Part shown: positions 11,535 through 18,558 of the stretch, in pieces
How positions within the stretch are numbered: position 1 is the first letter of the stretch
How the letters are laid out: each line of letters opens with the position of its first letter
Assembly (NCBI GenBank): GCA_024688885.1
Contig: JAILDV010000018.1
Span: 1-49,740 of the forward strand
Length of the DNA: 49,740 bases
Source of the DNA: Bacteroidaceae bacterium
GTDB lineage: Bacteria > Bacteroidota > Bacteroidia > Bacteroidales > Bacteroidaceae
Direction of reading: 5' to 3'
Made by a program: the position numbers and the translations under genes
The notes under the pieces: model-generated
The model's database searches: none
What the model was told of the DNA's origin: nothing
The model's input: only the letters and a program-made list of their open reading frames with translations

Positions 11535-12902
11535 ATGGAAAGTGTTTTACATGTATTGCAAGCAGTGTTGGACATTGTCAATGAGATGTCCCCTTACTTG
11601 CTGTTAGGTTTTCTCTTGGCGGGCATCATGCATGCCTTCATCCCCGACGGATGGTACACGAAATATCTTAGTGGCAACACGATGCGCTCTGTCATTAACG
11701 CTGCCATCTTCGGCATACCGCTTCCCCTCTGCTCTTGTGGTGTGATACCCACTGCCATGTCTCTCCGACGTGAAGGTGCCAGCAAAGGTGCTGTGGTCTC
11801 CTTTCTCATCGCCACGCCACAAACGGGTGTCGACAGCATCTTCGCCACCTATTCCCTAATGGGGCTTCCCTTCGCTGTGGTACGTCCTATTGCAGCGTTG
11901 TTCACCGCGATGATTGGAGGCACGTTCGTGAATTGGAATGGAAAAGAAGTGGAAGCAATAATGCCGACTGACGAATCTCGTGCCTACTCGGAAAGGCCTC
12001 ATCTTTCTTTCGGCGATAGATGTGTTGAAGCCCTCAAGTTCGGTTTTGTAGAAATGATGGAAGACATCGGAAAGTGGCTCGTGGTAGGTCTTATCGTGGC
12101 AGGTCTCATCACGGTGCTGGTGCCCGATTCCTTCTTTGAAATTTTCAAGGACAACACACTTTTGAGCATGCTTCTTGTGCTCTGCATCAGTGTACCCATG
12201 TACATCTGCGCTACAGGTAGCATTCCCATTGCTGTGGCACTCATGATGAAGGGGTTGACACCCGGAGCTGCCCTCGTCATGCTTATGGCAGGTCCTGCCT
12301 GCAACGTGGCAAGCATTCTCGTGGTCAACAAAGTGTTAGGCAAGAAAACCCTCATGCTCTATCTTGCAGCCATCGTGGGAGGTTCCATCCTCTTCGGCTT
12401 TGGCATCGACTATCTCTTGCCTCGCGAGTGGTTCACCGACCATCTGAACAGCACCCATGCCTGCTGTCATGAAGTGGCGAGCTGGTTCGAATGGACATGC
12501 ACAGCTATCCTCACCCTCCTCCTCCTCAATGTGCTTCGCATGAAACTGCAGCACAAGTCAGCATGCTCTTGTGGACACGACCATTCAGATCATTGCCATT
12601 GTCACGATTTTCACGACCATTGCCATTGCCACGATGAGGCTTGTTCCTCACCAGCAAACACCCCGGACGGTTCTCCCCATAGAGGGGGAGATGTCCGCAG
12701 GACAGAGAGGGTCTTTTATATCAAAGGCATGACTTGCAACCATTGCCGCGCCAATGCCGAGAAAGTCATCCGCACTGTCAAAGGTGTGGAGTCCGTCACT
12801 GTTGATTTGCAGAGTGGTGTGGCTACCGTGACAGGTGATGACATTGACGAAACAGCCATTCGTGAAGCAGTGGAAAGCATCGGTTTCACGTTGAAACAAT
12901 AG
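11535..12902 (+). CDS. SO_0444-type Cu/Zn efflux permease with C-terminal HMA domain
   Basis: This 455-residue membrane protein belongs to the DUF318/ArsP-like permeases. It has eight or more membrane helices and the motif GIPLPLCSCGVIPTA (CxC, around residue 60). A second half-repeat holds MLMAGPACNVASI. Then comes a cytosolic His/Cys-rich loop (CGHDHSDHCHCHDFHDHCHC) and a heavy-metal-associated domain with the GMTCNHCRANAEK motif. It should export copper or zinc across the inner membrane. Residues about 377-394, linking the His loop to the HMA domain, are encoded by a repeat (12664-12717). An intrinsic terminator follows. Confidence 0.88.
   Translation: MESVLHVLQAVLDIVNEMSPYLLLGFLLAGIMHAFIPDGWYTKYLSGNTMRSVINAAIFGIPLPLCSCGVIPTAMSLRREGASKGAVVSFLIATPQTGVDSIFATYSLMGLPFAVVRPIAALFTAMIGGTFVNWNGKEVEAIMPTDESRAYSERPHLSFGDRCVEALKFGFVEMMEDIGKWLVVGLIVAGLITVLVPDSFFEIFKDNTLLSMLLVLCISVPMYICATGSIPIAVALMMKGLTPGAALVMLMAGPACNVASILVVNKVLGKKTLMLYLAAIVGGSILFGFGIDYLLPREWFTDHLNSTHACCHEVASWFEWTCTAILTLLLLNVLRMKLQHKSACSCGHDHSDHCHCHDFHDHCHCHDEACSSPANTPDGSPHRGGDVRRTERVFYIKGMTCNHCRANAEKVIRTVKGVESVTVDLQSGVATVTGDDIDETAIREAVESIGFTLKQ
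12664..12717 (+). repeat. Palindromic repeat, family 2 copy 2, inside the Cu/Zn permease
   Basis: This segment matches about 50 bases of the right half of the repeat at 2876-2985. It includes the hairpin TCTCCCC/GGGGAGA, then GATGTCCGCAG and ACAGAGAGGGT. Here it is read in a different frame (PDGSPHRGGDVRRTERV) from copy 1 (PDGLPIVGEMSAEQRGY). Confidence 0.8.
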
Positions 12903-12957: not shown

Positions 12958-12982
12958 TTGTGTCCCGTCATCTCCAAAATGT

Positions 12983-13133
12983 GTTGCTCGCAACCTCCAA
13001 ACAATTTGGCTTGAATACAACTTTCATTTTGGCTTGATTACAACTTTCGATTTAGCTTGATTACAACTTTCAATTTGGCTTGAATACAAAAACCGATTTG
13101 GCTTGAATACACAAACGTGTCATCAAGCCAAAT
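12983..13133. repeat. 151-bp flanking repeat, copy A (23-bp unit array)
   Basis: This segment matches 15344-15494 at 150 of 151 positions. It begins with the hairpin GTTGC-TC-GCAAC and holds five direct 23-bp units of the type TTGGCTTGAATACAACTTTC. Inverted units follow to about 13183 (TCAAGCCAAAT, TATAAGCCAAAG, TACAAGCCAAT). GATTTGGCTTGA (13095-13106) pairs with TCAAGCCAAATC (13123-13134). It lies in the 456-bp gap upstream of the unknown gene at 13359. Confidence 0.95.
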
Positions 13134-13309
13134 CAAAAGTTGTATATAAGCCAAAGTTTATGTTATATACAAGCCAATTACTCTGCAGTTTATTGGCGAC
13201 GCATAGTGGAGATGGCGGAAGACACATGACCTTTTTGGCTTCATGAAAGAAAATGTTATGATGTTTGAATAAATTTTGAATAAAATGTACGTAATTCTGA
13301 AAAATGTTG

Positions 13310-13317
13310 TACATTTG
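13310..13317 (+). promoter_or_regulatory. -7 box upstream of the RT-linked gene
   Basis: TACATTTG fits TAnnTTTG and lies 41 bases before the ATG at 13359. It may drive the unknown gene, the structured RNA and the reverse transcriptase together. Confidence 0.6.
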
Positions 13318-13358: not shown

Positions 13359-13880
13359 ATGGATTTTGGTAAATTGATCTCAAAGATTGTGGATGTTGCA
13401 AAGGACTATATTGAGAACTCAAATAGCAATGCGCACCCCACACAGCAGGCACCTTCTGCACAGCGTCCCGTTTCTTCTCCAGCCGCTTCTGCTGTGAAGC
13501 GGGAAAAGACTGATGCTGAATGGAATGCTTATTTCAAGGAAATTTTGCAGGGCACATTCTCCATGTACTCCATTCGTGAGAACGTGCCAGTGACTGACTT
13601 GGTAGGATTTGCCAACGACGAATTCAAGCTTTACTCGACACGTCCGATGCAGGCTTACAAAGCAGAGTGGGGCAAACCCTACACCTTCGTTCTCGAAAAG
13701 GACGGTGCTGCCAAGGCTATGGTGATGCTTGGCAATGGACATAGCCACGACAGCAATGTGAAGTACTTGATTGCAAGGGTGTATGCCAAGAAAATGGGCA
13801 TCCCTTACATCAACTTCTACACTCAGATGCCCAACGAACGCGATTACGTCATTGGACGCATTCGCAAGTTTTTGGCGTGA
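13359..13880 (+). CDS. Unknown protein encoded upstream of the reverse transcriptase
   Basis: I do not recognise this 173-residue protein with certainty. Residues 1-22 form an amphipathic helix (MDFGKLISKIVDVAKDYIEN). A Ser/Pro/Gln-rich linker follows to about residue 50. The globular part is rich in alternating strands: KPYTFVLEKDGAAKAMVML, then KYLIARVYAKKMGIPYINFY and RDYVIGRIRKFL. That order loosely resembles small endonuclease-like folds, but no complete catalytic motif can be named. It ends 7 bases before the structured RNA and 154 bases before the RT start. It may be part of the RT unit or an independent gene. Confidence 0.7.
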   Translation: MDFGKLISKIVDVAKDYIENSNSNAHPTQQAPSAQRPVSSPAASAVKREKTDAEWNAYFKEILQGTFSMYSIRENVPVTDLVGFANDEFKLYSTRPMQAYKAEWGKPYTFVLEKDGAAKAMVMLGNGHSHDSNVKYLIARVYAKKMGIPYINFYTQMPNERDYVIGRIRKFLA

Positions 13881-13887
13881 TATGAAC

Positions 13888-14022
13888 TGAAAAAGGGGAG
13901 GCAGCATGCTGCACCTGCAAAGGAGGCAGCCTTGTCCACCATTTGATGTTTTGCAGGTAACAGGACAAGGTGTCCTCTTGTGAACAGCAATTTTGCTGAT
14001 TCAAAATCTTTCCCCTTTTTCA
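13888..14022 (+). ncRNA. Structured RNA upstream of the reverse transcriptase (candidate RT-associated ncRNA)
   Basis: A perfect 12-bp stem, TGAAAAAGGGGA (13888-13899) with TCCCCTTTTTCA (14011-14022), closes the segment. Inside are GCAGCATGCTGC (13901-13912); ACCTGCAAA (13913-13921) with TTTGCAGGT (13950-13958); CCTTGTCC (13930-13937) with GGACAAGG (13963-13970), interleaved with the previous stem and so a pseudoknot; and the hairpin CAGCA-ATTT-TGCTG (13985-13998). GGACA-AGG-TGTCC is an alternative to the pseudoknot. Position and closed ends resemble the RNAs that precede retron and some defence-type RT genes. It could instead be a cis-acting leader of the RT mRNA. Confidence 0.65.
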
Positions 14023-14034
14023 TTTCTTTTTCTT

Positions 14035-15273
14035 ATGATGGAAAGCATCTTAACGCAACTCACCCGTCAAGACGTTTGGGAGGAATTCCTTGCCTACCGA
14101 CTGCTGAAGGGGCGTTTCACATGGCATGAATTTGAAGAAGCCGACAGTTACGTGGAGCGCGAAGAATACCTCCCTTTGGCACAGAAGATAGCGCATGGAG
14201 AGGGTTTGGGTATCCCTCAAAAGAAAATGGTCAACAAGATGGGAACGGGCAAGAAACGTGTGGTTTACAGTTTCGCACCCGACGAGATGACGATACTCAA
14301 GCTCCTTGCCTACAAGCTCTATGACTACGATGCCTGTTTCGCTCCCAACTGTTACGCTTTCCGTAGGGGCATCAAAGCCAGCGATGCCATCTTTCACATT
14401 GTCCATGCAATTGGTGACAAGAAGATGTGGGCATACAAACTCGACATCCACGACTATTTCAACTCCATTTCCATCGAAGTCTTGTTGCCCATTCTGGCAG
14501 ACATGATGGCAGCTGACAAACCGCTTTACCATTTCTTCGAAAAGATGCTCACCAACCCTGCAGTCATCTATAATGGCGAGATGCTCAATGAGTGTCATGG
14601 CGTGATGGCTGGCACCCCCACCTCTCCCTTTTTGGCAGATGTTTATCTGAAAGAAGTGGATCAATATTTTTACGACGCCCATGTCATCTATGCCCGCTAC
14701 TCAGATGACATCATCCTTTTTGCCCCTGACTTTGACACGCTCTGCCACTATAAAAGCAAGATGGCAGCCTTTCTCAAGCAATACCAGCTTGAAGTCAACC
14801 CCGACAAGGAAAAAATCTATTCACCCGATGAACCCTTCGAATTTCTCGGCTTCAAATGTCATGACCACCACATAGACCTCTCGGAAGCTACCAAGAAGAA
14901 GATGAAGGGTAAGATCAGACGGGCTGCTAAGTCACTCATGCGCTGGAGCAGCAAGAACCACCTCGAACCTGAAAAAGCGATGAAGGGACTCATCAACCAG
15001 TTCAACCGCACCTTTTTCGAGGGTGCAGATGACGCATCCCTCACATGGTCGCGCTGGTTCTTCCCCGTCATCAACAGCACCGACGGACTTCGTGAAATTG
15101 ACCACTACCTCCAGCAGAACATCCGCTTCCTCAGTACCGGCAAGCACAATAAAGCCAACTTCAAGACAGACTATGCCCATCTGAAACAATTAGGCTACAG
15201 AAGTCTTGTGAACGAATACTATAGGAATTCCAAGGATTTTCATTCATGTGTCTTTCCTGATTCTGATAGTTGA
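14035..15273 (+). CDS. Reverse transcriptase (unclassified, not a canonical retron or DGR type)
   Basis: This is an RNA-directed DNA polymerase of 412 residues from the ATG at 14035. A longer TTG reading from 13993 would start inside the upstream RNA hairpin. RT motifs in order: GTGKKRVVYSFAPDEMTILK (about 70-89); NCYAFRRGIKASDA; YKLDIHDYFNSI with the first catalytic Asp (137); GVMAGTPTSPFLADVYL (189-205); YARYSDDIILF with the YSDD box (222-225); VNPDKEKIY; FEFLGFKC. A C-terminal domain of about 130 residues contains LREIDHYLQQNIRFL and HLKQLGYRSLVNEYY. There is no maturase endonuclease domain, and the retron NAxxH and VTG motifs are not evident. Function is inferred, possibly defence. Confidence 0.92.
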   Translation: MMESILTQLTRQDVWEEFLAYRLLKGRFTWHEFEEADSYVEREEYLPLAQKIAHGEGLGIPQKKMVNKMGTGKKRVVYSFAPDEMTILKLLAYKLYDYDACFAPNCYAFRRGIKASDAIFHIVHAIGDKKMWAYKLDIHDYFNSISIEVLLPILADMMAADKPLYHFFEKMLTNPAVIYNGEMLNECHGVMAGTPTSPFLADVYLKEVDQYFYDAHVIYARYSDDIILFAPDFDTLCHYKSKMAAFLKQYQLEVNPDKEKIYSPDEPFEFLGFKCHDHHIDLSEATKKKMKGKIRRAAKSLMRWSSKNHLEPEKAMKGLINQFNRTFFEGADDASLTWSRWFFPVINSTDGLREIDHYLQQNIRFLSTGKHNKANFKTDYAHLKQLGYRSLVNEYYRNSKDFHSCVFPDSDS

Positions 15274-15324: not shown

Positions 15325-15356
15325 GTAAGGGCAAAAAAAATGGGTTGCTCGCAACC
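15325..15356 (-). terminator. Terminator-like repeat, copy 1
   Basis: On the minus strand GGTTGC-GA-GCAACC is followed by CATTTTTTTT, so it can end transcripts arriving from the YopX-like gene at 15620-16402. The 24 bases 15325-15348 are identical to 18484-18507. Confidence 0.6.
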
Positions 15357-15494
15357 TCCAAACAATTTGGCTTGAATACAACTTTCACTTTGGCTTGATT
15401 ACAACTTTCGATTTAGCTTGATTACAACTTTCAATTTGGCTTGAATACAAAAACCGATTTGGCTTGAATACACAAACGTGTCATCAAGCCAAAT
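15344..15494. repeat. 151-bp flanking repeat, copy B (23-bp unit array)
   Basis: This copy is identical to 12983-13133 except for one base in the second unit (CACTTTGG versus CATTTTGG). After 15494 the match decays, leaving only weakly similar units (TTGTATTCAAGTGAAA, TATATTCAAGTGAAAT). Together the copies bracket 13134-15343, which holds the unknown gene, the structured RNA and the RT. The 346-bp gap 15274-15619 contains nothing else I can name. Confidence 0.95.
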
Positions 15495-15619
15495 ATTGAG
15501 TTGTATTCAAGTGAAAAGTAAGACTATATTCAAGTGAAATAGGAGAATGTATATAAGCTAAGTATTTTGGAGGCGATGGAGGACACATGAGGGAGGTAGT
15601 GGAAGAAAGGGTTTTGTGT

Positions 15620-16402
15620 TTATGGAAGACGGATGGGTAAGTCCTCGTATATTGGCTCATCTTTCAGATATTTCAAGGCTCGCTCTTGCCATGTCTTGCA
15701 AATAAAATAGGGTGCGTGTGCCATCTTGATGTGGAGATTACGTAGATTGATTTTGTATGGAAAAGCTAACATGGCACAATGATCGCTAATGTTGACAGTC
15801 AGTTTGTCGGGGTCTAAGTCATAGAAAACGTTGCCAATGACTTTGACTTTCTTTGTGTTTCGCATGGGGACGGGGCATTGGTCAAGGATATAATAGTAAT
15901 CATCATTTCTATGACCAAAACTGTTCACACCTGCAATGGTAGTATAGCCGCTATGGGGTCTTTCATTGATTATTTTGGCACGACTCATTCCTCCATTCGA
16001 AGGGATGTCCGCTTCCATAAACATGGTGGCTTTCACTACATCACCCGTGTAGATTTTCTTCCCTTTGTCATCACGGTAGCCCGTATAGAAGCCAGCGAAG
16101 ATGACAGGGAAGATTTTGATGTCTTTGAACACCTCCAGATTCTGAAGCCTTCCTGTCAACTTGAAGTCATCTAACGTCAAATAATGCTCGGCTTTTTCAT
16201 CTTGTGTCCAGAAGAACAGAAGGTCACGATAAAAGAATAGGCTGTCTACGCTGGCATAACCAAATGTGCAGTCACTTTTGATAAACCTTACTTCGATTTC
16301 GTCAAAGTAGTGGTCGGTATCAACATCCATTAAAAAATCATCCAAGAACTGTTCAATATTCTCTTGGAAATCTGCATTAGAACACATTACCTTTGCTTTC
16401 AT
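15620..16402 (-). CDS. YopX-like domain protein
   Basis: This 260-residue protein has a C-terminal half resembling the YopX domain found in phage and plasmid proteins. AGFYTGYRDDKGKKIYTGDVV (about residues 103-123) matches the usual start of that domain, and VKVIGNVFYDLDPD matches its usual end. The acidic N-terminal half (EQFLDDFLMDVDTDHYFDEIE) is not recognised. YopX function is unknown. The ATG is preceded by a -7 box at 16429-16436 and a 19-bp motif (16448-16466) shared with the next gene and the WYL regulator. Confidence 0.6.
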   Translation of the reverse strand: MKAKVMCSNADFQENIEQFLDDFLMDVDTDHYFDEIEVRFIKSDCTFGYASVDSLFFYRDLLFFWTQDEKAEHYLTLDDFKLTGRLQNLEVFKDIKIFPVIFAGFYTGYRDDKGKKIYTGDVVKATMFMEADIPSNGGMSRAKIINERPHSGYTTIAGVNSFGHRNDDYYYILDQCPVPMRNTKKVKVIGNVFYDLDPDKLTVNISDHCAMLAFPYKINLRNLHIKMAHAPYFICKTWQERALKYLKDEPIYEDLPIRLP

Positions 16403-16428
16403 ATCTACTTGTTTTAGTGAATATGATG

Positions 16429-16436
16429 CAAAGGTA
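16429..16436 (-). promoter_or_regulatory. -7 box of the YopX-like gene
   Basis: On the minus strand this reads TACCTTTG, 26 bases before the ATG. The conserved 19-bp motif sits exactly 11 bases upstream of it. Confidence 0.7.
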
Positions 16437-16447
16437 ATGCGAGATAC

Positions 16448-16466
16448 GGCAAAAACGTTGCACAGT
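16448..16466 (-). promoter_or_regulatory. Putative WYL operator, copy 1
   Basis: On the minus strand the sequence is ACTGTGCAACGTTTTTGCC, identical over 19 bases to 17435-17453. In both places it ends 11 bases before a -7 box, so it covers the -33 region. It contains the palindrome AACGTT. Confidence 0.65.
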
Positions 16467-16534
16467 GGAGGGGAGTTTACGCAAATAGTGGTATTCCCTT
16501 ATTTATGTTCATATCAGAAATCTGGTGTTGGTTT

Positions 16535-17386
16535 TTACTTCTGTTTGCTTAAAAAATCGACTAAATCTTCATATTTGCCATCTTCAAAGTTGGGTGGAGT
16601 GATGTATTGACTTATCATACTTGACTTCTTTTTCCGAATGATAAGGCTCTCATATTTATCAAAAAAATCTTTTTTAGATAAAAGATTCTGCCACTTATCC
16701 TCTGATCTCATAATTAGGAAGCGTACGTCCTCTTTTTTGTTTTCAGCAATATACCAAAGCATATCTTTAATAAATCTCTGTGATTCTAAAAAGGCTCCTC
16801 TTAGTGGGAATGTGCGATTAGCCTTTTGTGAACTATATCCATGATATTCAACCATTGCTATCTGTTTGAAGAATTCTGTGTCCTCAATGAATTGATTTTT
16901 TTGTTTCACATCGTCTTTCAATTGTTTCAATTTGTTCTCCCAATACTGGTCTTCTAACAGACAAACAGCTTCCCTGCACGTTATGGGATAATTATCATTC
17001 TTGTCATCCTCTTTCTCAGGGAAAAAAGAATGTGTTTCAAAAAGCAGTGTTTTCTTCTTGAATTCAATCACCTTTTTTCGGATATTGATGTTAGTTTGCA
17101 TTAGCTTCGCTAGTGTTTCATTAACCTTTGGCACATATCCAGGATTAAGGCTTAGAATTATTAATCGAGCTTCGAAAGGATTTCCCCACCATGGTTCTGC
17201 TGGTATCCTTGTGATAATCTCGTCTTTAGTGCCTTGTGCTTTCTCGTTGTACTTTTTAATTGCATCTTTGTCACAGGAGCAAACATAGTTATTATCTTCG
17301 CCATACAGACAATTATCTTTGTTGGGATTATACATGTCTGCAACCTCTTTCCAAGGATTCTTGCTTTTTAATTGTTTTTCTGTCAT
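16535..17386 (-). CDS. UDG-superfamily-like protein of unknown function
   Basis: This 283-residue protein has EPWWGNPFEARLIILSLNPGY near residues 63-83. The LNPG loop after a hydrophobic strand resembles the first motif of uracil-DNA-glycosylase-like folds. Later parts (MVEYHGYSSQKANRTF and VRFLIMRSEDKW) could form the remaining strands. An N-terminal pair CSCDK is present. No catalytic assignment is safe. The gene is visibly richer in A+T than its neighbours, which suggests later acquisition. It is transcribed divergently from the WYL regulator across a shared operator. Confidence 0.6.
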   Translation of the reverse strand: MTEKQLKSKNPWKEVADMYNPNKDNCLYGEDNNYVCSCDKDAIKKYNEKAQGTKDEIITRIPAEPWWGNPFEARLIILSLNPGYVPKVNETLAKLMQTNINIRKKVIEFKKKTLLFETHSFFPEKEDDKNDNYPITCREAVCLLEDQYWENKLKQLKDDVKQKNQFIEDTEFFKQIAMVEYHGYSSQKANRTFPLRGAFLESQRFIKDMLWYIAENKKEDVRFLIMRSEDKWQNLLSKKDFFDKYESLIIRKKKSSMISQYITPPNFEDGKYEDLVDFLSKQK

Positions 17387-17415
17387 AATTATGATGGTTT
17401 ATGTTATAGTAGTTG

Positions 17416-17423
17416 CAAAGATA
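17416..17423 (-). promoter_or_regulatory. -7 box of the UDG-like gene
   Basis: On the minus strand this reads TATCTTTG, 29 bases before the ATG at 17386 and 11 bases downstream of the operator at 17435-17453. Confidence 0.7.
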
Positions 17424-17434
17424 CGCAATCTTTT

Positions 17435-17453
17435 GGCAAAAACGTTGCACAGT
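17435..17453. promoter_or_regulatory. Putative WYL operator, copy 2, between divergent promoters
   Basis: The 19 bases are identical to 16448-16466. They lie between the leftward -7 box (17416-17423) and the rightward -7 box (17468-17475). Binding here could control the UDG-like gene and the WYL gene together. Confidence 0.65.
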
Positions 17454-17467
17454 CTCGATTATTTCCG

Positions 17468-17475
17468 TACTTTTG
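17468..17475 (+). promoter_or_regulatory. -7 box of the WYL regulator
   Basis: TACTTTTG fits TAnnTTTG and lies 16 bases before the ATG at 17492. It rules out the longer reading that starts at 17372. Confidence 0.65.
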
Positions 17476-17491
17476 CGAAAATAATTGGATT

Positions 17492-18403
17492 ATGGCTAAG
17501 AATTTGTTTGCACGCTACATTTGGGAACTGACCACCATCTATCGTGTTGGGCGTATCACGCTGAAAGAGTTGAATGAGCGCTGGCAGGATTGTTATTTGT
17601 ATGATGGAAAAGATATTCCTCGGCGCACGTTTGACTATCATCGCAAGGAGATAGAAATGCTGTTTAATTTGAACATCATTTGTGACAAGCACGATAACAC
17701 CTACCGTGTAGAAGATGACGATGGCTATCGCAATGGGGAACTGCGCCAATGGCTCGTCAATAGTGTGGCTGTGAGTTCTATTGTGCGTGAGGCAGAGGAT
17801 TTGGGTAGCCGCATTGCCTTGGAGCACATACCATCGAGTGAGCCATTTTTGCCTAACGTCATTCAAGCTCTGCGTGAGAATAAAGTCATCTCGTTTGTCT
17901 ATCAGAGTTTCGATAGGGATACACCAACACAACACACGCTCATGCCTTATGCACTCAAGTTGTTTCGTCAACGTTGGTACATTGTGGGCAAGCCTCTGGA
18001 TGATGAAAAGATTCTTATTTTTGCCACGGATCGTATCAGCACGTTGACCCTCGAAGAGAAGACTTTCAAATATCCTAAAGACTTTGACATCAACGACTAT
18101 TACAGAGATTCCTTTGGCATCATCATCGAAGAAGGTGTGCCATGTGAGCACATTGTGATTAAGGTGGCAAGTAGTCAAGTGAAATACCTACGTTCCCTGC
18201 CTCTTCATTCATCCCAACGTGAAACAGCCACGACACCTGAACACTCCATTTTTGAATATGACTTGAAGCCAACTTATGACTTTGAGCAGGAACTTCTCTC
18301 GCATCGCGAAGATTTTGAAGTCCTCCAACCCGAGTCTTTGAGGAACAGGATGAAAGTTATCGTGCAGGATATGTACGAAAGGTATTGTGCTGATGCATCT
18401 TGA
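17492..18403 (+). CDS. WYL-domain transcriptional regulator
   Basis: This 303-residue protein has an N-terminal helix-turn-helix region (YRVGRITLKELNERW, then IPRRTFDYHRKEIEML) and a central WYL domain. The signature segment is HTLMPYALKLFRQRWYIVG, a WYI variant of the Trp-Tyr-Leu core. A C-terminal WCX-like part ends in DFEVLQPESLRNRMKVIVQDMYERY. WYL proteins bind nucleic-acid or nucleotide ligands, and several (BrxR, CapW) repress phage-defence genes. A repeated operator suggests it controls itself and the two genes to its left. Confidence 0.9.
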   Translation: MAKNLFARYIWELTTIYRVGRITLKELNERWQDCYLYDGKDIPRRTFDYHRKEIEMLFNLNIICDKHDNTYRVEDDDGYRNGELRQWLVNSVAVSSIVREAEDLGSRIALEHIPSSEPFLPNVIQALRENKVISFVYQSFDRDTPTQHTLMPYALKLFRQRWYIVGKPLDDEKILIFATDRISTLTLEEKTFKYPKDFDINDYYRDSFGIIIEEGVPCEHIVIKVASSQVKYLRSLPLHSSQRETATTPEHSIFEYDLKPTYDFEQELLSHREDFEVLQPESLRNRMKVIVQDMYERYCADAS

Positions 18404-18490
18404 TTCAGTCTATAAGACCTACTGATCCCAACAAAAAGAACTAAAAATTTGCTTGTTTTCGTTTGTTTTTCGAGGCACTAAACGTAAGGG

Positions 18491-18558
18491 CAAAAAAAAT
18501 GGGTTGCCGCTGCAACCCGAACCTTTGTTAACCTTAAATCTAATACTATGAAAAACAC
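18491..18558 (-). ncRNA. Candidate small RNA with its own promoter and terminator
   Basis: On the minus strand a -7 box TATCTTTG (18563-18570) stands 20 bases from an upstream TTGACA, a good -33/-7 spacing. About 68 bases later GGGTTGC-AGCG-GCAACCC (18518-18501) is followed by ATTTTTTTT. No reading frame of note lies between. Promoter plus intrinsic terminator over about 70 bases suggests a small RNA. It may belong to a Bacteroidales small-RNA family already described, which I cannot test here. It lies in the 350-bp gap between the WYL gene and recJ. Confidence 0.5.

Follow-up and report, generated by a model that had tools for sequence, protein, structure and literature searches.

We report that a Bacteroidaceae genome carries what appears to be a three-part reverse transcriptase (RT) system, in which a structured RNA of the RT-5 family is encoded between the gene of a small companion protein and the gene of an RT of the UG26 group. 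The window, by which we mean the whole stretch of DNA analysed, comprises 49,740 nt of Bacteroidaceae bacterium (assembly GCA_024688885.1, contig JAILDV010000018.1, positions 1-49,740, forward strand). On its + strand a 173-aa companion gene (13359-13880) is followed by a 135-nt RNA segment (13888-14022) and by the RT gene, which ends at 15273. With somewhat better than even confidence we regard this locus as a complete class-2 UG/DRT-type system that works as proposed below, with a templating RNA and a likely part in phage defence. The RNA and RT families are already catalogued; as far as the literature searched, the three-part system is uncharacterised. This links two catalogued and unexplained entries, RT-5 RNA and the UG26 RTs, to a third gene in a single unit that can be tested; its features are as follows.

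13310-13317 (+): TAnnTTTG, -7-like element 5' of the companion gene (pattern match)
13359-13880 (+): companion gene, 173 aa, with a predicted amphipathic N-terminal helix, a flexible linker and a putative degenerate PD-(D/E)XK / COG2852-like domain
13888-14022 (+): RT-5 structured RNA, closed by stem P1 (13888-13899 with 14011-14022)
13901-13912 (+): hairpin P2; 96.5% of cells paired, 2 of 4 pairs covary
13913-13958 (+): pseudoknot with a 6-bp conserved core (13913-13918 with 13953-13958); 99.8% paired, 3 of 6 pairs covary
13922-13978 (+): stem P3, made up of P3a, P3b and P3c
13922-13926 with 13974-13978 (+): P3a; 4 of 5 pairs covary
13930-13937 with 13963-13970 (+): P3b; 7 of 8 pairs covary
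13947-13950 with 13959-13962 (+): P3c, a small hairpin; 3 of 4 pairs covary
13981-14003 (+): hairpin P4 (covariation counts), candidate template-boundary element
14000-14011 (+): loop J4/1, candidate template: UCAAA (14001-14005) and six variable bases before the C run of P1
14035-15273 (+): UG26 reverse transcriptase, starting at ATG 14035 or 14038
14695-14709 (+): RYSDD catalytic box of the RT

The RT was assigned to UG26 by profile. The protein matched the UG26 profile with 534 bits over residues 3-399 of 411, and the next best, UG27 and UG17, reached 116 and 106 bits; UG4, Drt9 and Drt3a were the nearest UG profiles after these. The UG26 grouping reportedly goes back to Mestre et al. 2022 (PADLOC RT_UG26). 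All NCBIfam models that matched the RT (group II, Drt3a, a retron and others) stayed below their own cut-offs, and the group II maturase model gave 120 bits of the 300 needed, as high as the next UG profiles. Eleven UG26 rows formed one clade (support 100/99) in a tree whose comparison rows were nine generic RTs, an annotated group II RT, a DGR, a phage RT, one UG17 and one Drt3a; nine of the ten rows counted as 'generic' are RTs known by the general RT profile alone. In this small tree, in which the DGR, Drt3a, UG17 and two other rows sit on long branches, UG26 was not joined to UG17 or Drt3a. Retron, DGR and group II identities were rejected on motifs, profiles and the tree. A preliminary description of this DNA had called the unit a candidate undescribed RT system that may belong to a class it could not assign; neither part of that claim is supported, the RT being UG26 by profile and clade and the RNA being RT-5 (85.9 bits).

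The 411 aa of the RT comprise an RT fold and a helical C-terminal part only. Its AlphaFold model (pLDDT 90.2) was structurally closest to the group II RT GsI-IIC (TM 0.76), followed, among others, by G2L4 (0.68), DRT9 (0.66) and DRT2 (0.55). The YSDD box reported earlier is the RYSDD at 14695-14709. We placed the start of the protein differently, most probably at ATG 14035 or 14038 and thus outside the RNA, as the RTs of relatives begin at the same place. The earlier unit of 13888-15273 also lacked the companion gene, which proved as constant as the other two. In an alignment of 39 RTs, the window's own and those from 38 of the 80 loci described below, Tyr387 is invariant; it lies inside the loop before the last helix, within a conserved C-terminal GYxSLV segment.

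The RNA segment folds at -56.3 kcal/mol, as compared to a mean of -37.3 for shuffled sequences (z -5.55; none of 200 shuffles was as good). It matched Rfam RF03026 (RT-5) over the full length of the model (1-104) with 85.9 bits, against a gathering score of 45.7, and is the sole RF03026 match in the window's genome. The window has three Rfam matches in all, none of them a group II intron RNA. The RT-5 RNA is said to have been described by Weinberg et al. 2017. Neither 'RF03026' nor 'RT-5 motif' was found in the literature searched, and no RNA, product or function of UG26 either; the founding RT-5 and UG26 papers lie outside that literature, so that a prior link between the two is possible.

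The helices of the preliminary description, namely a 12-bp closing stem, interleaved helices of 9 and 8 bp and two more hairpins, are all present: they are P1, the pairings of 13913-13921 with 13950-13958 and of 13930-13937 with 13963-13970, and the hairpins P2 and P4. In the 9-bp helix the three outer pairs are weaker than the core, and one of their bases is common to the covarying P3c. We examined these pairings in an alignment of 78 RNAs: the window's own, the two of genome G240 and those of 75 among the 80 loci. L046, L049 and L084 were deliberately omitted from it, and L043 and L090 were absent as they had been missed by our RNA pattern. Comparison of homologues, which had been put forward earlier as a check, showed that the stems do covary: 24 of the 46 pairs in P1-P4 and the pseudoknot had two-sided changes, 92.7% of cells were paired, and on none of five covariation measures did any of 500 shuffles score as high, a significance that is overstated since the 78 RNAs are related. 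Sliding the partners by 1-3 columns lowered pairing to 43-55%, a comparison biased towards the unshifted structure, which had been drawn from one of the aligned RNAs. In a second count restricted to the pseudoknot core, P3c and P4, the value for the knot was reached by 3 of 500 shuffles on one of the five measures and by none on the others. The structure line of RF03026 holds only P3, P3c and P4; P1 lies outside the model, P2 is absent from it, and a nested model is unable to hold the covarying pseudoknot that we find here. P1, P2 and the pseudoknot are thus additions to the structure of the Rfam model, which the original RT-5 description may already show.

To assess how constant the association is, we scanned 84,980 species genomes with the UG26 alignment and took the best 80 of 557 candidate loci. 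The titles of these name Prevotella, Bacteroidaceae, Bacteroidales, Bacteroidia or Salinivirgaceae, and many are from ruminant hosts. With our pattern the RNA was identified ahead of the RT in 78 of these 80 loci; L043 has only the 3' part, at a contig edge, and L090 has the whole RNA about 3 kb before the RT. TBLASTN detected the companion in 79 of the 80, the exception being L043, whose contig ends before it. Each of the three parts was detected in nine of 399 genomes of the family, always the same nine, with E-value limits of 1e-60 for the RT and 0.001 for the companion; one companion, that of G240, was found at 1.1e-4 only. Across the order, 6 of 295 genomes had RT-5 matches, 5 of them over the cut-off. 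A divergent UG26 enzyme (L143, genome G563; 363 bits, 31% identical to the window's RT) is also accompanied by an RNA, which scores 41.2 bits and so lies below the RT-5 cut-off. The suggestion made earlier that the RNA is the partner of this RT is therefore borne out, and the RNA is strongly supported as a constant partner of UG26 RTs throughout the genomes compared.

Wherever measured, the order companion-RNA-RT was constant and tightly packed, with median gaps of 8 nt between the companion stop and P1 and of 11 nt between P1 and the RT match, and a tail of up to 173 nt. In 33 of 78 loci a TTG-N17-23-TAnnTTTG element was present in the 200 nt preceding the companion, and none of the 78 had one in the 180 nt that immediately precede the RNA; the window itself has the TAnnTTTG half only, which resembles the Bacteroidetes -7 element. 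This distribution of promoter-like elements suggests that the three parts are probably carried on a single transcript. Two genomes depart from the usual layout. In L090, whose genome is also that of L140, the companion is still together with the RNA, and the RT follows on the same strand after about 3 kb, beyond a gene that is presumably TrkA-like. G240 has the order companion-RNA-companion-RNA-RT, with two RNAs (L017 1501-1602 and G240:C92:5006-5109) that differ in their loops, UCAAAAUCAUU vs UCAAAAAAAUUU, and a single RT. The displaced RT of L090 and the doubled RNA of G240 suggest that the RNA probably acts in trans.

UCAAA, at the beginning of loop J4/1 between P4 and P1, is the longest invariant run of the alignment, present in all 78 RNAs, and we also found it in all nine RNAs outside the alignment, among them those of L141, L142 and L143; these nine remained from 12 stretches read, after removal of three that repeat rows of the alignment and of L140, which duplicates L090. 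Its first bases are able to pair at the foot of P4 and the remainder runs into J4/1. UCAAA is followed by 6 variable bases in 65 of the 78 RNAs and by 5 in 10, and the commonest of the 38 distinct loops is UCAAAAUCA. By eye, a repeat of the A-B-A' kind known from DRT10 looked convincing in the loop, and it failed shuffle tests. Patterns anchored with at least 2 bases occurred in 32 of the 38 distinct loops (27.6 expected, P 0.035), with at least 3 in 12 (9.6 expected, P 0.22) and with at least 4 in 3 (1.8 expected, P 0.26), and unanchored patterns in the same loops gave P values of 0.07-0.57. Without clear enrichment of the pattern, repeated copying of the loop is suggestive at best, and single copying or slippage on the AAA would be equally possible.

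Comparison with described class-2 enzymes gives these observations a framework. DRT2, DRT3 and DRT9 are named as UG members with an ncRNA in the available text of PMC12489045, and class-2 DRT systems are linked to the origin of telomerase in that of PMC12632851. The same part of PMC12632851 places the template loop of DRT10 directly after the last stem-loop and derives its repeats from the A-B-A' pattern. DRT10 (UG17; ncRNA, SLATT and RT), as far as it is described there, resembles our locus in being tripartite, in its closed multi-hairpin ncRNA, in a loop after the last hairpin and in a small partner protein. It differs in that its RT falls outside the UG26 clade, that our companion is nuclease-like and not SLATT, that the RNA here lies between companion and RT, and that A-B-A' is not significant. 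DRT9 (UG28) and DRT3a (UG3) likewise combine a class-2 RT with an ncRNA that has a short conserved loop placed analogously to J4/1. According to the portions available, the template of DRT9 is a conserved poly-U tract (PMC12483538) and that of DRT3a is ACACAC, in a loop 'positioned analogously' (PMC13174585), whereas UCAAA is the conserved element here; we saw no second RT next to that of the window. In view of these analogies it is likely that the RNA loop templates DNA synthesis by the UG26 RT. DRT9 and DRT10 are described, in the accessible parts of PMC12483538 and PMC12632851, as priming from a C-terminal Tyr or Ser, and for that reason we consider Tyr387 a candidate protein-priming residue, no more.

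The companion protein was more difficult to classify. The PADLOC profile RTasCOG2852 matched 41 of 43 companions at E up to 0.01 (best 5.5e-7), the 43 being the window's protein and those of 42 of the 78 loci with an extracted companion; the profile's name implies that an RT-linked COG2852 gene was already known by 2023. Pfam returned nothing convincing for the companions, and neither PADLOC nor Pfam identified any as SLATT, which is a membrane protein. With the companion profile PDLC03793 we obtained no match in 198 genomes of the order, the window's own included; since it was too weak to establish distribution, we used the alignment of the 43 companions instead. The structure model is confident over about residues 51-172. 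Foldseek returned no significant fold for it, the best solved neighbours being weak TnsA matches (E 0.07), and the companion alignment has no clear acidic triad (D-ExK) at the PD-(D/E)XK motif positions. The companion would be a degenerate nuclease fold, probably inactive.

We infer a link to the membrane from the N-terminal part of the protein. The N-terminal helix is amphipathic, with a median moment of 0.54 and a moment of at least 0.45 in 62 of 78 companions; against shuffles of the same residues 68 of 78 had P < 0.05, a figure subject to the bias of choosing the best segment. Both G240 companions have zinc-ribbon-like cysteines. The first of them lacks a transmembrane stretch as well as a strong amphipathic helix; the other contains the domain twice and is strongly hydrophobic, and transmembrane-like, in its N-terminal part. 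In L143 the companion is replaced by a DUF155 (RMND1-like) neighbour with a hydrophobic, transmembrane-like C-terminal stretch.

From these elements we propose the following mode of action. The RNA would be released from the shared transcript and bind the RT as a scaffold that holds the protein through P1-P3 and the pseudoknot. J4/1, that is UCAAA and the six variable bases, would occupy the active site and serve as a short template bounded on its 5' side by P4. Synthesis would be protein-primed from a C-terminal residue, for which Tyr387 is the best candidate, and the product would be a T-rich single-stranded DNA with TTTGA in it, which realignment might iterate, for instance as (TTTTGA)n on the commonest loop. 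The companion, as a membrane-tethered, probably inactive nuclease fold, would act as effector or regulator in the place that SLATT has in DRT10. We are distinctly tentative about a stronger version in which UG26 is a repeat-synthesising, telomerase-like RT that works on the UCAAA loop and hands T-rich tandem-repeat DNA to a membrane-tethered pseudo-nuclease effector; under that version, the single RT that serves two template RNAs in G240 would make the system naturally multi-template. Should the proposal hold, class-2 DRT systems would gain a new type of companion and a strictly conserved template core, and J4/1 is a named stretch of RNA to seek in the DNA product.

Alternative roles for the RNA have to be weighed against this proposal. 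It might be a cofactor or scaffold and not a template, with UCAAA as a protein-recognition loop and with the DNA of the RT untemplated or copied from other RNAs. Class-1 Abi enzymes do make untemplated DNA, the loop repeats are not clearly above chance, the invariant UCAAA could be a protein-binding site instead, and the other half of the loop varies widely. We nevertheless judge this rather unlikely given the nearly fixed length of the loop and the fact that the class-2 UG relatives studied so far, as far as the available accounts of them go, template from a loop in the same position. Much less probable is a cis-acting leader that controls expression of the RT by attenuation or by protein-binding autoregulation. 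The position of the RNA, on the same strand and a few nucleotides before the RT match, would suit such a leader, but in L090 the RNA stays with the companion when the RT is displaced, one of the G240 copies precedes a companion gene and not the RT, and a closed pseudoknot in which every helix covaries is more than a leader needs. A retron, in which the RNA would be an msr-msd and the RT would make branched msDNA, might equally be thought of where an inverted repeat closes an RNA encoded just before an RT. We give this hardly any credence: the NAxxH and VTG motifs, which had already been noted as missing, are absent from the window's RT, the retron St85 model scores 62 bits against a cut-off of 235 while UG26 reaches 534, and the 135 nt contain no separate long msd hairpin.

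The benefit of the proposed system to the cell was approached through its genomic context. In the window it lies between what we take to be a permease-type gene (11535-12902) and a FopS RNA/recJ region, the genes being named from their sequence. The same junction was present in eight stretches from the genus: in G169 it measures 0.27 kb, in G014 it holds this system only, and in six others it holds different cargo. Scanning the cargo proteins of four of these six (L131-L134; L135 and L136 were left out) revealed UzuA (L132), PDC-S11 (L133) and parts of a type IIG restriction-modification system (L134); L131 had no PADLOC match and encodes Nmad2/Nmad3 domains. G141 has 19 kb at the junction, with transport and outer-membrane genes by eye. 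From this shared hotspot, which is our one ground for it, phage defence is perhaps the likely benefit. A domesticated host function, for example as a maker of stress-related or regulatory single-stranded DNA, seems to us unlikely, if a serious contender. Such a function would fit the loci, several among the 19 of the best 80 whose neighbours we viewed, in which the system is solitary between housekeeping-type genes, with the same neighbour, presumably glmS, beside it in L061, L062 and L093. It would also fit the phage and viral collections searched, which contain no close UG26 and a single 25% match (L100). On the other hand, the presence of the system is patchy, in the 9 of 399 family and 6 of 295 order genomes given above, and the other cargo of the window's hotspot includes known or candidate defence genes. 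UG26 is moreover listed in cold-seep viruses, as a bare listing, in the available text of PMC10504277.

Several further features of the region were observed. A direct repeat of ∼198 bp flanks the three-part system on both sides (12976-13173 and 15337-15534, 91% identical); each copy holds an array of a 23-bp unit (4.8 copies), and related sequence occurs at many places in genomes of the genus. These repeats could help cassette exchange. At the recJ side of the hotspot is a match to the BTncRNA_FopS sRNA (18489-18558, - strand, 76.2 bits), and short matches to this segment recur widely in related genomes. On the 3' side of the RT, 15620-18403 encodes a YopX-like gene, an unassigned 283-aa gene and a WYL regulator. 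Three relatives keep the WYL gene and, by eye, a YopX-like gene and carry UzuA, PDC-S11 or Nmad2/Nmad3 genes between them, and for this reason the gene at 16535-17386 may be an undescribed defence gene.
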